Assembly (NCBI RefSeq): GCF_010119205.1
Contig: NZ_WRXM01000001.1
Coordinates: 868,001-932,000, forward strand
Length of the DNA: 64,000 bases
Reading direction: 5' to 3'
DNA from: Haloarcula limicola
Lineage (GTDB): Archaea; Halobacteriota; Halobacteria; Halobacteriales; Haloarculaceae
Of the stretch, positions 3,661-52,204 are shown piece after piece. Below the pieces are notes generated by a model. The model worked only from the letters and a program-made list of their open reading frames with translations, had not been told where the DNA came from and did no database searches. A program made the translations under genes and the position numbers. Each line of letters starts with the position of its first letter. Position 1 is the first letter of the stretch.

Positions 3661-3774
3661 ATGAGCGAGAGCCGGTACGAGTGTCCGAACTGCGAGACGG
3701 AGATGAGCTACTACACGACCAAACACACGGGCTGTCAGAACTGCGGGTTCGTCCCGCCGCACGGCGCGGAGTGA
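3661..3774 (+). CDS. Small double-CxxC zinc-finger protein
   Basis: A 37-residue protein with two CxxC knuckles (C8-x2-C11 and C25-x2-C28, both in CPNC/CQNC form), enough to bind one zinc ion as a zinc ribbon. Such micro-proteins are very common in haloarchaea and most are uncharacterised; several affect stress growth or swarming when deleted. The ATG at 3661 was chosen because it places the protein directly behind a TATA-like box; the longer ORF upstream of it has no family-like sequence. It may act alone, as a nucleic-acid or protein-binding adapter. Confidence 0.75.
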   Translation: MSESRYECPNCETEMSYYTTKHTGCQNCGFVPPHGAE

Positions 3775-3854
3775 GAGGCTGAACGCCCGTGAGTCGCGGG
3801 CACATCTCGGGCGTCGTCGAGCACGTTTTTGTCGTTGCGCCGTGAGCACCCGAT

Positions 3855-4418
3855 ATGCCCTCCGAACACGATTGGCTCACGCTGGACGACGACGAGGAGA
3901 TCGTCTGGCGGGGCCAGCCCTCCACCGAATCGCTCTACGGGACGTATATCGTCGGCGTCCCGATGATACTGCTCTTGGGACTGGGCCTCGTCGTCATCGC
4001 CTCGGCGCGCCTCCGCCAGCGGAACACCGACTACGTCATCACGGACAAGGGCGTCTACAAGAAGACGGGGATCTTCAGTCGCGCCGTCACGGAGATCGAC
4101 CTCGACAAGGTCCAGAACACCTCGTTCTCGGTCGGCGCGGTCGGCCGGTACTTCGACTACGGGGACGTGATGATAAGCACCGCCGGCGGCTCCGGCGTCG
4201 AGATGACGCTCCGCGGCGTCGCGGACCCGCAAGCCGTTCAGAAGCAACTCTCGCGCGGCGTCAAACGCGCACAGAGCGAGTCCGACGACGAGACCGACGA
4301 CGAGTCGAAATCGGACGTGCTCGTCGAGATCCTGACCGAGCTGCAGGCGATACGGCAGTCGCTCGACGCGGGGAACCGGCCCGGCAACGGTGACCGCCGG
4401 CCCGAGCGCGACGGATGA
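3855..4418 (+). CDS. Bacterial-PH-domain membrane protein (DUF304/bPH2)
   Basis: A 187-residue protein. After a WxGQP-type N-terminal segment (residues about 18-22) comes one hydrophobic stretch (residues about 30-50), then a bPH2 beta-barrel region with the family signature YVITDKGVYKKTG...V.EIDLDKVQNTS. The last 50 residues are charged and probably helical. The domain faces the cytoplasm in related YdbS/YdbT proteins; its ligand is unknown. The gene overlaps the next paralogue by four bases (ATGA), so the two are probably co-translated and may form a hetero-oligomer. Confidence 0.85.
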   Translation: MPSEHDWLTLDDDEEIVWRGQPSTESLYGTYIVGVPMILLLGLGLVVIASARLRQRNTDYVITDKGVYKKTGIFSRAVTEIDLDKVQNTSFSVGAVGRYFDYGDVMISTAGGSGVEMTLRGVADPQAVQKQLSRGVKRAQSESDDETDDESKSDVLVEILTELQAIRQSLDAGNRPGNGDRRPERDG

Positions 4419-21349: not shown

Positions 21350-21435
21350 ACGTGTGAGGTTCCCGCGGACACCGATAAATGACGCGGTGCCGAGAGATGA
21401 AAAGGGACTTGTCGATTCGAGGAGTCGGTGCCGGT

Positions 21436-22404
21436 ATGAAAGCGATCGTCCTCGCAGGCGGGTACGCGACTCGACTCTGGCCCGTGACGAAACAGCGGCC
21501 CAAGATGCTCCTCCCCATCGGCGACTCGACGGTCATCGACCGCATCCTCCGAGATTTAGAGACCGACGACCGCATCACCGACATCTTCGTCAGCACGAAC
21601 GAGCGGTTCGCCGAGGACTTCCGCGACCACCTCTCGGCGAGTTCCTACGACAAGGTTGACCTGACCATCGAGGAGACGACCGAAGAGGACGAGAAGTTCG
21701 GTGTCGTCGGCGCGCTGGCTCAACTGGTCGACCGCGAGGAACTCGGCGACGAGGACCTGTTGGTCGTCGCCGGCGACAACCTCATCAGCTTCGACATCGC
21801 CGACTTCCTCGACCGGTTCGAGTCCCACGGCGACCCGACGCTCGCGGCCTACGATGTCGGCTCGCTGGAGAAGGCGAAGTCCTACGGGCTCATCGAGACC
21901 GACGGCGACGAGGTCGTCGACTTTCAGGAGAAGCCCGAGAACCCCAAGAGCACGCTCGTCTCCATCGCTTGCTACGCGTTCCCGTCCGAATCCATCCGGT
22001 TCGACGAGTACCTCTCGGGCGGTAACAACCCCGACGAACCGGGCTGGTTCATCCAGTGGCTGGTCGAGAACGGGCCGGTCCGCTCCTTCACCTTCGACGA
22101 GGCGTGGTACGACATCGGCACCCCCGAGAGCTACCTCGAAGCCGTCGCCTGGGAACTCGAAGGCGAGAACCTCGTCGCCGAGGACGCGAGCGTCGAGAAC
22201 ACGACGCTCGGCGAGAACGTCCACGTCCTCTCGGGTGCGGAAGTCGTCAACTCCAGTCTGGACAACAGCGTCGTCTTCCAGAACGCGACTATCGTCGACG
22301 CCGACATCCGCAACTCGATCATCGACAAGGACACTCACATCGAGAGTCTGGATCTCGCCGGCGCGCTCATCGGCGCGCACACGCAGTTGACGAACGGGAA
22401 CTGA
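21436..22404 (+). CDS. Sugar-phosphate nucleotidyltransferase (NDP-sugar pyrophosphorylase)
   Basis: A 322-residue enzyme with the nucleotide-binding signature LAGGYATRLWPVTKQRPKML at its N-terminus, which holds the G-x-G-T-R-L and catalytic Lys motif. The catalytic core runs to about residue 235. The tail (about 245-322) has a left-handed beta-helix pattern of hexapeptide-like repeats (ENTTLGENVHV, NATIVDAD). It would form an NDP-sugar from NTP and a sugar-1-phosphate for glycoprotein or exopolysaccharide synthesis; glucose or another hexose is likely but unproved. The ATG at 21436 is used because the canonical MKAIVLAGG begins there. Confidence 0.88.
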   Translation: MKAIVLAGGYATRLWPVTKQRPKMLLPIGDSTVIDRILRDLETDDRITDIFVSTNERFAEDFRDHLSASSYDKVDLTIEETTEEDEKFGVVGALAQLVDREELGDEDLLVVAGDNLISFDIADFLDRFESHGDPTLAAYDVGSLEKAKSYGLIETDGDEVVDFQEKPENPKSTLVSIACYAFPSESIRFDEYLSGGNNPDEPGWFIQWLVENGPVRSFTFDEAWYDIGTPESYLEAVAWELEGENLVAEDASVENTTLGENVHVLSGAEVVNSSLDNSVVFQNATIVDADIRNSIIDKDTHIESLDLAGALIGAHTQLTNGN

Positions 22405-22437
22405 GCGCTCCTTCTCGGCGACCCCCTCGGACGTCTC

Positions 22438-22583
22438 TCACTCGCGGTCGGTTCGGTTCACTCCAGCCACGCGCCCGTGACCTGAATTGTCCCGCGCGTT
22501 CCGTCCCACTCCGTCTCGTACTCCAGTTCGATACGTCGGTCCATATGCGGCCCGTCGGTCACCAGCGTCTCGAACTCCCCGCC
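22438..22583 (-). pseudogene. Duplicated 3' end of dph6 (remnant)
   Basis: This segment repeats the last 41 codons and stop of the intact dph6 gene at 22780-23499, plus about 20 bases beyond the stop. The reading frame is kept, and the translated tail differs at one residue (Gly for Asp, four from the end). Within the coding part I count five base differences, four of them synonymous. There is no start codon or N-terminal domain, so it cannot make the enzyme. It lies beside the hairpin-rich element at 22584-22700. Confidence 0.8.
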
Positions 22584-22700
22584 GTACCTTTTTCTTCGTC
22601 GGGTTTCCTCGTTCGCTTCGTCTCGCGGCTACGCCGCTCGTCTCGCTCGCTGCGGGAACCACTCCTCGAAAAATCTACGCTAAAAAGCCGGCCACTCGTT
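22584..22700. repeat. Hairpin-rich intergenic element, copy 1
   Basis: Begins with GTACCTTTTTC and holds the core AAAAATCTACGCTAAAAA at 22669-22686. The same core occurs twice, in opposite orientation, at 50585 and 50799. Between them are palindromic Arg/Ser-codon-like stems such as GCGGCTACGCCGC. The element sits between convergent genes, so a bidirectional terminator is one reading; a dispersed repeat is another. Confidence 0.6.
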
Positions 22701-22779
22701 CGTTCCGGTTCACGGCTTCGCCGTTCACCATTCGAGGTCGCTCCGCGACCTCGCTTCACTCACTCGCGGCCGGTTCGGT

Positions 22780-23499
22780 TCACTCCAGCCACGCGTCCGT
22801 GACCTGAATCGTCCCGCGCGTTCCGTCCCACTCCGTCTCGTACTCCAGTTCGATACGTCGATCCATGTGCGGCCCGTCGGTCACCAGCGTCTCGAACTCC
22901 CCTCCTTCGCCGAGGATGTGGACGCCGTACTCCTCGTGGAGTTCCTCGAGTTCGTCCAGCGCGTCGGCGTCGAGACGGCGGCCGAGCCACGATTCGTCGA
23001 GACCGTAGGCGGCGACGCGGATGATTCTGATCTCGAAGCCGGCGTCGAGCATCGCGTCGGCGAGGTCGCGGGGGTTCTCTTGCCAGAGCGGGGCGAAGAC
23101 GTTCGCCTCCAGCCGCTCGGCCATCGCCTCGATGCGGGTGGTCTGGTACTCGCTCTCGACCGCGCCGGCGGTGACGCCGCCGACGCCGTCGGGCAGTTCC
23201 GCGTCGAGTTCGCGCAGGGCGGCCTCCAGTGGTTCGAGTTCCTCGTCGCCCTGCCGCCCGGAGTCGACGGCCTCGGCCGCTTCGAAGTCGTCGGGTTCGA
23301 CTTCCAGCAGCGGGACGCCGATGCTCTCGGCGGCCAGCGACGCCAGCCGGGTCGCCGGGACGTGATACATGTACGAGTCGCCCTCGGGGTGGACCGTCAC
23401 CAGTCGCTCGACGGCGTAGCCGCGTTCGAGCGCGCGATAGAGCGCCCACGAGGAGTCCTTGCCGCCGGAGAACAGCGACACCCACGCGCCGTCTGTCAT
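22780..23499 (-). CDS. dph6: Diphthine--ammonia ligase (Dph6 family)
   Basis: A 239-residue ATP-dependent amidase that would make the last step of diphthamide synthesis on translation elongation factor 2. The PP-loop SGGKDS (S11-S16) binds ATP, and the segment with PLW and the DPH6-type ENPRDLADAMLDAGFE region follow. The start at ATG 23499 is fixed by the PP-loop position; the longer ORF has no family sequence upstream. It is the last gene of the leftward run PAC2, SppA, DUF373, Dph6, with a gap of 35 bases to the DUF373 stop. Its 3' end is repeated just downstream. Confidence 0.9.
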   Translation of the reverse strand: MTDGAWVSLFSGGKDSSWALYRALERGYAVERLVTVHPEGDSYMYHVPATRLASLAAESIGVPLLEVEPDDFEAAEAVDSGRQGDEELEPLEAALRELDAELPDGVGGVTAGAVESEYQTTRIEAMAERLEANVFAPLWQENPRDLADAMLDAGFEIRIIRVAAYGLDESWLGRRLDADALDELEELHEEYGVHILGEGGEFETLVTDGPHMDRRIELEYETEWDGTRGTIQVTDAWLE

Positions 23500-28030: not shown

Positions 28031-28204
28031 CGACCTTTTTCATCGCCGGGAGAGCGAAGCTCAGGCCGCGGGCAAAAGGCAGGGCTAGAGCATACCGCGA
28101 GCGAAGCGAGCGGTTTCACGCGAATCGCTCCGCGATTCGCGCCTTTTTCGTCGACGTTTTTCGAGGAGTGGTCGCCGCAGGCGACCCGACGAAGAAAAAG
28201 GTCG
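28031..28204. repeat. Hairpin-rich intergenic element, copy 2
   Basis: The ends are inverted: CGACCTTTTT at 28031-28040 and its complement at 28195-28204. Inside are a hairpin GAGC-gaa-GCTC, the string GGCAGGGCT, AGAGCATACCGC followed by GCGGTTTCAC, a GCGAATCG/CGATTCGC stem, and CTTTTTCGTCGACGTTTTT at 28143-28161. The same order of blocks is seen in the copy at 50539-50862. It lies between two rightward genes. Confidence 0.65.
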
Positions 28205-28240
28205 AAAGCCACAAACGCACCCCCGTCGAACGCCGGGCCA

Positions 28241-50536: not shown

Positions 50537-50538
50537 GT

Positions 50539-50862
50539 AGTACCTTTTTACTGCGGGGGGTCGCCGATGGCGACCCCCGCTTGCAAAAATCTACGCTAAA
50601 AAGGCCGGTCGCGCGGAGCGCGACCGGAGAACCGGCGGCTTCGCCGCCGGATGCTTACAACGTTCCGCCGGCCGGGAGTGCGCTCTGTCGCACGACCCGG
50701 GGAAGGGCAGGCTGACGAGAGGAGCATACCGCGCCTCCGGCGCGGTTTCACTGAACGTGAGGCGAAGCCGAACGTTCAGCCTTTTTAGCGTAGATTTTTG
50801 CGGACCGGGTTCCCGCAGGTCGCCGCAGGCGGCCGAGGAAACCCGGTTCGGAAAAAGGTACT
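50539..50862. repeat. Nested inverted-repeat intergenic element, copy 3
   Basis: The outer ends are an 11-base perfect inverted pair (AGTACCTTTTT at 50539-50549 and complement at 50852-50862); the right end overlaps the stop of the phosphodiesterase gene. Inside is a second perfect 20-base inverted pair at 50585-50604 and 50780-50799, carrying the AAAAATCTACGCTAAAAA core. Stems in the middle include ACCGCGCC/GGCGCGGT. The layout suits either a bidirectional terminator or a MITE-like mobile element. Confidence 0.75.
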
Positions 50863-52204
50863 ATACCAGGCTCGCGCCGTCGAACTCGGTGCGATCGTAG
50901 TCGTGTTCTAGCAGGTCGAGGATGGTCGGGGCGATGTCGTAGAGGTCGGCGTCCTCGATGCGGGCGTCGGCGTCGTCGACGAGCAGCGTCGCGTTGTCGA
51001 AGGAGTGCATCCCGTTGCGCGGGCCGATACCGAAGACGTCGTCGCTGCCCTTGAAGCCGGCCTTGAGGTCGAAGCCGTGGTTCGGGACGACGACGAGGTC
51101 CGGCGCGATGTCGTCGTGGTCGCCGCGGAAGGCGTCCTCGCGGGTGACGACGCGGTCGGCGACTTTGTTCCCGTTCGGACCTTCGAGCGATTCGAGCTTC
51201 TCCTTGAGGTCGTCGCGCACCGACTCGTACTCGGCTTCGGGGACGCCGCCCTTGGGTTCGCGGCCCTCTAAGTTGACGTAGAAGCGGCCGGGGATGAGCG
51301 AGTACGCCTTCGTGTCCTCGCCGATGTCGCCCAGCTCGGAGTGGTCGTCGTCCTCGTATTCGAGCCAGCCCTCCTGTTCTAACCACTCGTTGAAGTGGAC
51401 CTCGTGCTCCAGCGAGGTGAAGCCGTGGTCGGAGGCGACGACCATCGTCACGTCGTCGCCGAGTTGCTCGCGGAGCTTGCCCAGATACTCGTCGACCTTC
51501 TCGTAGAAGTCGAAGAACTCCTGTTTGTACTCGCCGTCCTGCTCGTAGTGCTTGAACAGGAAGTGGTTGACCCGGTCGGTGGTCATGAAGACGCCGAAGA
51601 AGAGGTCCCAGTCGTCCTGCCCGACGTAGTGGGAGAACGTCTCGTAGCGGCGTTCGAGGGTCTCGTGGGCGTCCTCGACGAACTCGGTCTTGTCCTCGTC
51701 GTGGCCGAGCTTGGCGTTGACGTCGATGCGGTAGTTGCTGTCTTCGAGGCGGTCACGCAGTTCGTCCGGATAGGCCGCCTTGTCGACCCCGGGCGAGAGG
51801 AAGCCGGAGACCATCCGCTGGACGTTTCGCTGCGGCGGGAACGTGACCGGGACGTTGAGCACCGTCGCGTCGCGGCCGTCCTCGGTGACGCGGTCCCAGA
51901 GGCGGGTCGCCTGTACGTCCCGGCCCATCGGCACGTACGTGTCATAGGAGCCGACCTCGCGGTCCTGAAAGCCGTAGACGCCGGTCTGTCCGGGGTTGAC
52001 GCCGGTCGTCAGCGAGGGCCAGCAGGCGCTGGATTCGGGCGGAACGATGCTGTCGATGGGGCCGCCGCTCCCCTCGTTCTTGAGCTCCGTGAGGTTGGGG
52101 AAGACGTCCGGATGCTCGTCGATGAGGCTGTACGGCACACCGTCGATGCCGAAGAAGGCGACGCGGGGCGCGTCGTCGCCTTTCAGACGGTCGAATAATC
52201 CCAT
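50861..52204 (-). CDS. Type I phosphodiesterase/alkaline-phosphatase-superfamily protein
   Basis: A 447-residue enzyme of the nucleotide pyrophosphatase/phosphodiesterase group. The first metal-binding Asp is in FFGIDGVPYSL, the nucleophile region is PPESSACWPSLTTG, and later ligands are DRVNHFLFK and ASDHGF. The C-terminal segment carries the last metal His (GMHSFDNATLL). These enzymes hydrolyse phosphodiester or phosphomonoester bonds in nucleotides or lipids. No signal peptide is clear, so the location is probably cytoplasmic. The ATG at 52204 is used because MGLFDRLKG begins the usual sequence. Confidence 0.85.
   Translation of the reverse strand: MGLFDRLKGDDAPRVAFFGIDGVPYSLIDEHPDVFPNLTELKNEGSGGPIDSIVPPESSACWPSLTTGVNPGQTGVYGFQDREVGSYDTYVPMGRDVQATRLWDRVTEDGRDATVLNVPVTFPPQRNVQRMVSGFLSPGVDKAAYPDELRDRLEDSNYRIDVNAKLGHDEDKTEFVEDAHETLERRYETFSHYVGQDDWDLFFGVFMTTDRVNHFLFKHYEQDGEYKQEFFDFYEKVDEYLGKLREQLGDDVTMVVASDHGFTSLEHEVHFNEWLEQEGWLEYEDDDHSELGDIGEDTKAYSLIPGRFYVNLEGREPKGGVPEAEYESVRDDLKEKLESLEGPNGNKVADRVVTREDAFRGDHDDIAPDLVVVPNHGFDLKAGFKGSDDVFGIGPRNGMHSFDNATLLVDDADARIEDADLYDIAPTILDLLEHDYDRTEFDGASLV

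Follow-up and report, generated by a model that had tools for sequence, protein, structure and literature searches.

Gene-tail duplications beside a dispersed terminator-like hairpin element in haloarchaea

The duplicated dph6 tail and the hairpin between its copies

The window, by which we mean the whole 64,000-nucleotide stretch of the Haloarcula limicola genome analysed here, carries on its minus strand an intact ORF of 239 amino acids (22780-23499). From its translation we take it, like the preliminary description, to be dph6, encoding a diphthine-ammonia ligase-like ATP-binding protein; a protein search gave 57 related loci. The final 126 nt of this gene, from the GGEFET codon to the stop (22780-22905, minus strand), are present a second time in the same orientation at 22458-22583, with frame and stop codon kept, and the repeat alignment reproduced the coordinates and counts of the preliminary description. 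Beyond the stop, the two copies share a further 24 nt in addition to the 126 coding nt, an extension absent from the preliminary description, and the full direct repeat (22434-22583 and 22756-22905) is 150 nt long and 95.3% identical, with a spacing of 322 nt.

Between the two tails lies a hairpin-forming element, here called E, at the junction where the preliminary description had placed a hairpin. Its left flank (22690-22779, minus strand), itself hairpin-forming and variable, begins directly after the dph6 stop. The core (22584-22689, minus strand), delimited by a match to model R1 and by covariation, consists of CTTTTT, the trinucleotide GTA (22676-22678), TTTTT, an imperfect hairpin, AAAAAGG and the 3'-terminal trinucleotide TAC (22584-22586), which pairs with GTA; the R1 match itself spans 22581-22689 and scores 79.1 bits. 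The remnant tail begins immediately 3' of TAC. The 24 nt past the remnant stop (22434-22457, minus strand) match the start of the left flank of E and represent a truncated second element. Convergent with dph6 is a plus-strand ORF (21379-22404), presumably sugar nucleotidyltransferase-like, which follows dph6 in several E-less relatives too.

Our own count agreed with the earlier one that the window tails, both ending LE*, differ at five coding sites: four synonymous (GGA/GGC, CAC/CAT, GAT/GAC and ACG/ACA) and one non-synonymous (GAC/GGC). Polarised against relatives, the GGA and GAT changes occurred in the functional copy, CAC/CAT could not be polarised, and the remnant's own changes amount to one synonymous and one non-synonymous. 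The preliminary description had proposed that the remnant should match another strain's dph6 better than the resident gene. The comparison gave the opposite result: of 108 sites compared, 4 separate the remnant from the resident tail and 10 separate it from the closest other tail in the genus, and none of the 29 other genus tails sampled differs from it at fewer than 10. The window remnant is thus closest to the resident tail, and a native origin is not demonstrable from the sampled alleles. Because it carries 24 nt of the E left flank, it probably represents an older tail-E unit, left from a former array, and no bare end of a foreign allele. Chance similarity or repeat noise as the source of the duplication was ruled out by the flanking-repeat null and the 845-kb scan described below, and a one-off remnant peculiar to the window by its recurrence at other dph6 loci.

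Structure and distribution of element E

The hairpin between the window tails is a member of a dispersed element family. The consensus, in gene orientation, reads CTTTTT, a short linker that includes a trinucleotide, TTTTT, an imperfect hairpin, AAAAAGG and the complementary trinucleotide, and E measures about 65-110 nt. The left trinucleotide is GTA, CCA, CGA or GCA and its 3' complement TAC, TGG, TCG or TGC; the pairs were always standard in 27 of 27 E copies, with changes on both sides. Pairing also holds in 98% of cells across 82 distinct rows drawn from other genomes, nearly all of it Watson-Crick, in an alignment that was fitted to the covariance model and so leans towards the model's pairing. 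The covariance model gave 39 matches in the H. limicola genome, and it had matches in 46 of the 59 genomes searched from the order, this one included. In a draw of 120 genomes from the phylum, 12 of the 19 listed same-order genomes had matches, and none was found in the other 101 genomes, 88 of them covered without individual listing. At the gathering threshold, no Rfam family matched anywhere in the window, and we rejected E as a known RNA family. A weak test for a virus-borne element with one exact 24-nt core pattern, representing a single E type, found no match in viral_contigs. Open-access literature searches, which reached their sources in part, returned no description of E or of gene-tail duplication linked to it.

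Three further copies lie in the window. One (28141-28207, plus strand) has no tail duplication; the other two (50537-50605, minus strand, and 50779-50864, plus strand) face opposite ways with about 170 nt between them, and the right end of each falls at the stop codon of a convergent ORF. More generally, a convergent stop codon fell -1 to 9 nt from AAAAAGG in 75 of 144 E copies, with a sharp peak. By position E is thus a feature of gene 3' ends; its alignment shows T-tracts and a hairpin, and the T-tracts are available to both convergent genes. Because convergent stops adjoin it so often, E looks like a bidirectional terminator between tail-to-tail genes. At four loci (L126, L152, L185 and L188, with trinucleotides TCC, TGG, TCG and TGG), belonging to four genomes of three families, E lies at the end of seemingly the same convergent gene. 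Elsewhere (L226, a gyrA sister locus without a tail copy, and L033, L051 and L249) E is 3'-truncated with the left hairpin and T-tract kept; such half-elements may persist as plain terminators.

Tail copies at E across genes and relatives

We compared 500 nt upstream with 260 nt downstream of 144 distinct E copies, which were the better-scoring matches and no random sample (153 matches, from which nine repeats of the same copies were dropped). From the H. limicola genome, 30 of the 39 copies were tested, and a few of the remaining nine lie inside those 30 loci. A null of 2998 mismatched pairs had its 99th percentile at 16 and its five highest scores between 20 and 43, the top two coming from probably orthologous loci. 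Flanking direct repeats scoring at least 18, above this null, were found at 27 of the 144 copies. The downstream repeat started -6 to +8 nt from the modelled E end in 25 of the 27 (the exceptions being L164 and one of two L180 copies); seen close up, it starts directly after the 3' trinucleotide. The repeats range from 25 to 240 nt, and the duplicated stretch is usually the tail of the gene upstream of E. By ORF calls, the repeat start lay inside the upstream ORF in 15 clear rows and outside it at L173, L180, the second L201 copy, L204 and L105; placement was doubtful at L114, L123 and L138, and L221 had no ORF. As read from their translations, the genes with a tail copy include gyrA, ileS (in the H. 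limicola genome, L202 and L190), purM, dph6, an FKBP isomerase, an aminopeptidase, TiaS, a thiolase, an ETF subunit and a methyltransferase in two genomes.

The start site within the gene differs between genes, and by eye the variable joining site showed no clear base consensus. At many junctions the first three remnant bases are followed by one or two additional bases, frequently C. The similarity between the tails ended no more than 9 nt from the intact stop in 10 of 11 non-array cases, the exception, on reading, being L190; this is the pattern that the joining of two alleles with unrelated spacers should give. Arrays containing two or three copies of E occur at L204, L201, L180 and the dph6 loci L010 and L049, and distal, mostly 3'-truncated elements at L104, L116 and 22434-22457 of the window.

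As a control we scanned 845 kb of the H. limicola genome not chosen for E (two 390-kb blocks and the window, with 2030 ORF ends and eight E copies). Three gene ends reached a score of 22, and the only two clear tail copies, at dph6 in the window and at a gene at 1224361, both had E between them. The third match, whose score of 22.5 equals the highest null value, was a tandem repeat. The dph6 row itself scored only 22.5 since the ORF end caught in the scan was no true stop, and its full repeat was listed separately.

At dph6, we collected 57 loci from public genomes and added the window; 55 of these carried the GGEFET/GGGFET landmark. A second tail lay downstream in 11 of the 55 (the window, L010, L019, L023, L025, L036, L038, L042, L049, L050 and L060); downstream hits at L028 and L047 proved to be no tail copies. 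A separate search of 32 genomes of the genus, which may overlap in species with the first set, matched 31, and of the 30 loci read, 24 had a single tail and six a tail-E-tail arrangement (L255, from H. limicola, and L256, L260, L261, L263 and L265); on reading, L265 has a shorter tail copy with a different start. The old spacer follows the last tail copy, and at L256 and L260 the distal tail is followed by an E-less spacer without trace of E. The last tail at L256 ends LAE*, like that of the E-less sister L258, and is followed by the same neighbour gene, whereas its first two tails end LE*. The resident tail at L256 is farther from the sister than the gene body suggests, a distance to be read against E-less pairs, which vary almost as widely. 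The tails at L260 differ only near the end, where the remnant has the relatives' version, and the L060 remnant is nearer than the resident tail to seven of eight relatives (the exception being L039). An integrase attachment site in dph6 was dropped as an identity for E: other genes have different sites, and no integrase was seen among the loci read.

Several other features were seen near dph6. Within E at L019 (about 3721-4085), and likewise at L260, lies an AT-rich insert with seemingly inverted ends (GTTGTGAATAC ... GTATTCACAAC), probably an independent small mobile element inserted into E. At L049, a roughly 75-nt palindromic insert (about 4164-4240) separates the third dph6 tail from a further E copy, after which comes an apparent, heavily decayed fourth tail. 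Three Natrinema/Haloterrigena loci (L029, L042 and L064) show a tail-E-tail arrangement near 4.7-5.0 kb, at another gene close to dph6.

At gyrA, six of 30 genus loci carry a downstream tail copy (L225, from H. limicola, and L231, L242, L248, L252 and L253), with at least two different starts inside the gene, and four have E without a tail copy (L236, L247, L250 and L254). The L248 remnant together with its spacer scored 110 against the single tail of the E-less L240, and its intact tail is nearest to those of the E-bearing L252, L253 and L250. The E-bearing species L242, L248, L252 and L253 are mutually nearest in the rest of the gene as well, so the shared intact tail partly reflects ordinary descent. 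Polarity was unclear at L231. Where it is readable (gyrA L248, dph6 L256 and dph6 L060), comparison with relatives identifies the remnant as the native tail and the intact tail, together with E, as the newcomer. This reverses the polarity of the preliminary description, in which the remnant would be foreign and the resident tail original.

The preliminary description had also argued that random decay would not spare the protein sequence. This argument is weak on the five changes of the window and clear over 22 tail pairs from several genes, where we counted 108 synonymous and 63 other differences (63% synonymous, with multiple-hit codons handled crudely); it is therefore stronger for the whole class than for the window. 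Random change in the tails would give a synonymous share of 26%, and functional dph6 tails of E-less species pairs give 50%; without the dph6 rows the pairs give 47:18, or 72%. A copy dead at birth should drift to the neutral share, as L060 (9:16), L263 (5:8) and L023 (4:6) do; L260 (1:3) also has mostly non-synonymous differences. Across loci, the synonymous excess supports the view that the two tails behave as alleles, both functional for most of their divergence. Gene conversion between repeats is expected in polyploid haloarchaea, and it could also keep the copies alike and raise the synonymous share. The two-allele behaviour, the relatives that lack the duplication and the hairpin element at the junction lend partial support to the recombination with another allele that the preliminary description had proposed.

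Origin of the tail copies and comparison with known systems

The feature in the window exemplifies a haloarchaeal element that is widespread and associated with the duplication of gene tails. The explanation we favour, to which we give about an even chance, is that E is a dispersed terminator-like hairpin at gene 3' ends that is acquired together with the tail of the upstream gene, the old tail being left behind. Incoming DNA, presumably from a related strain, would consist of a gene tail plus E. On the gene side it would be joined by ordinary homologous recombination within the coding sequence; on the element side the precise end directly after the 3' trinucleotide, probably made by a nick or break, is linked to a site that varies from case to case and lies within or close to that gene. 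With a joining site upstream of the stop, the old tail would persist beyond E as a remnant, in frame or nearly so, with the old spacer after it; a site downstream of the stop would give a plain E insertion. Homologous exchange between the repeats may then produce tail-E-tail-E arrays or excise units. At dph6 in the window such an acquisition would have taken place, its remnant, with 24 nt of a second E, probably being an older tail-E unit. Frequent recombination between haloarchaeal species has been described (PMC4500145, in the portion accessible to us).

Tail-plus-E acquisition is favoured because 27 of 144 copies are flanked by repeats, the tail copies were E-specific in 845 kb, the end of E is precise and the joining sites vary, relatives have single tails, the old spacer comes after the last tail, and both the polarity and the synonymous bias fit. 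It is weakened because the window remnant is closest to its own resident tail, gene conversion may act, L231 is unclear, descent may contribute at gyrA and some pairs are mostly non-synonymous; it also leaves the right end at a convergent stop in 75 of 144 copies unaccounted for, and no enzyme was found. A more specific proposal, which we consider unlikely, is that E is a cis-acting DNA-exchange site: a hypothetical HUH-type nuclease would nick exactly after the 3' trinucleotide, recognised via its pairing with the left trinucleotide, and the strand would carry the gene tail into another chromosome, where joining would be random at the element end and guided by homology at the gene end. If so, haloarchaea would exchange the ends and terminators of their genes at tens of dispersed sites in each genome, and every such event would leave a remnant as a scar.

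The repeats might instead be very long, variable target-site duplications (25-240 bp) made by widely staggered cuts as E transposed, and survivors would resemble tail duplications because only those spanning the stop keep the gene intact. This explanation, unlikely but credible to us, agrees with a repeat that begins exactly at the E 3' end, with variable sites and E-less single-tail relatives, and with a guide-like trinucleotide pair as in IS200/IS605 ends. The far end of the repeat, which lies at the stop in 10 of the 11 non-array cases when it could lie at any point of the spacer, argues against it, as do last codons that differ between copies with the relatives' version in the remnant, and a synonymous share of 63%, where roughly 40% (our own estimate) would be expected if the remnant decayed from the start. 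Nor did we find a match to the Y1 (TnpA) transposase PF01797 in the H. limicola genome, in a search that found matches in five of 14 control genomes, Haloferax volcanii included; other strains may carry such a transposase. A plain tandem duplication of tail and terminator, arising at the hairpin through replication slippage or unequal exchange and followed by loss of the distal hairpin copy, seems to us rather unlikely; it would readily yield the arrays and the distal truncated elements, the one in the window among them, but it sits poorly with the native polarity of remnants and with the E-less spacer, free of any trace of E, after the distal tail at several dph6 loci (L260 and L256). Single-tail E-less relatives beside tail-E-tail strains with such a spacer, partly seen at dph6, also speak against it. 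The synonymous bias and the hairpin at the junction would suit the preliminary version, a foreign dph6 allele end brought by recombination behind an original intact gene. We judge it very unlikely: the distances of the window remnant contradict it for the sampled genomes, and polarity runs the other way at other loci.

Under tail-plus-E acquisition, the tail scars beside E would record recombination at housekeeping genes (gyrA, ileS and dph6) across haloarchaea, datable by the two tails and polarisable by E-less relatives. For annotation, in-frame remnants after intact genes would be scars and no failed genes. Since E has a single precise end that is defined by structure, and no enzyme is known for it, the question of how it reaches its sites becomes directly testable.

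In IS200/IS605 elements a guide sequence pairs with the cleavage site, and the covarying pairs of E, placed where a guide and its site would be, suggest by analogy a similar recognition. The PATEs and IS200/IS605 elements of haloarchaea are, like E, short, transposase-free and dispersed with terminal palindromes (PMC3119063); those of E are near-terminal, and E is too short to code. E departs from them in the long gene-tail repeats at many genes, where that paper, in the part accessible to us, reports that PATEs and IS605 elements cause no duplication of the target, a point that also weighs against transposition, and in the lack of a Y1 match in its own genome. Bacterial REP elements, MITEs and SPRITE (PMC10969869) are small, dispersed, palindromic intergenic repeats, as is E; long variable repeats of a neighbouring gene's tail, present at E, are not described in the accessible part of that source. 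Compared with the short fixed duplications of MITEs, the repeats at E are long and variable, and no related transposon was identified. The RNA 3'-end map of Haloferax volcanii, as far as accessible, places T-stretch and hairpin terminators just past stop codons (PMC7237163), as in E; what sets E apart from such terminators is that its copies form one homologous, dispersed family, with a conserved sequence and ends that covary, and that it is linked to tail duplication. Neisserial DNA uptake sequences are short fixed words, with no duplicated gene ends described in the portion of the source available (PMC2397512), whereas E is longer and has variable end trinucleotides. They are nonetheless a functional parallel to E, being dispersed, short, often inverted-repeat terminators that are linked to recombination between strains.
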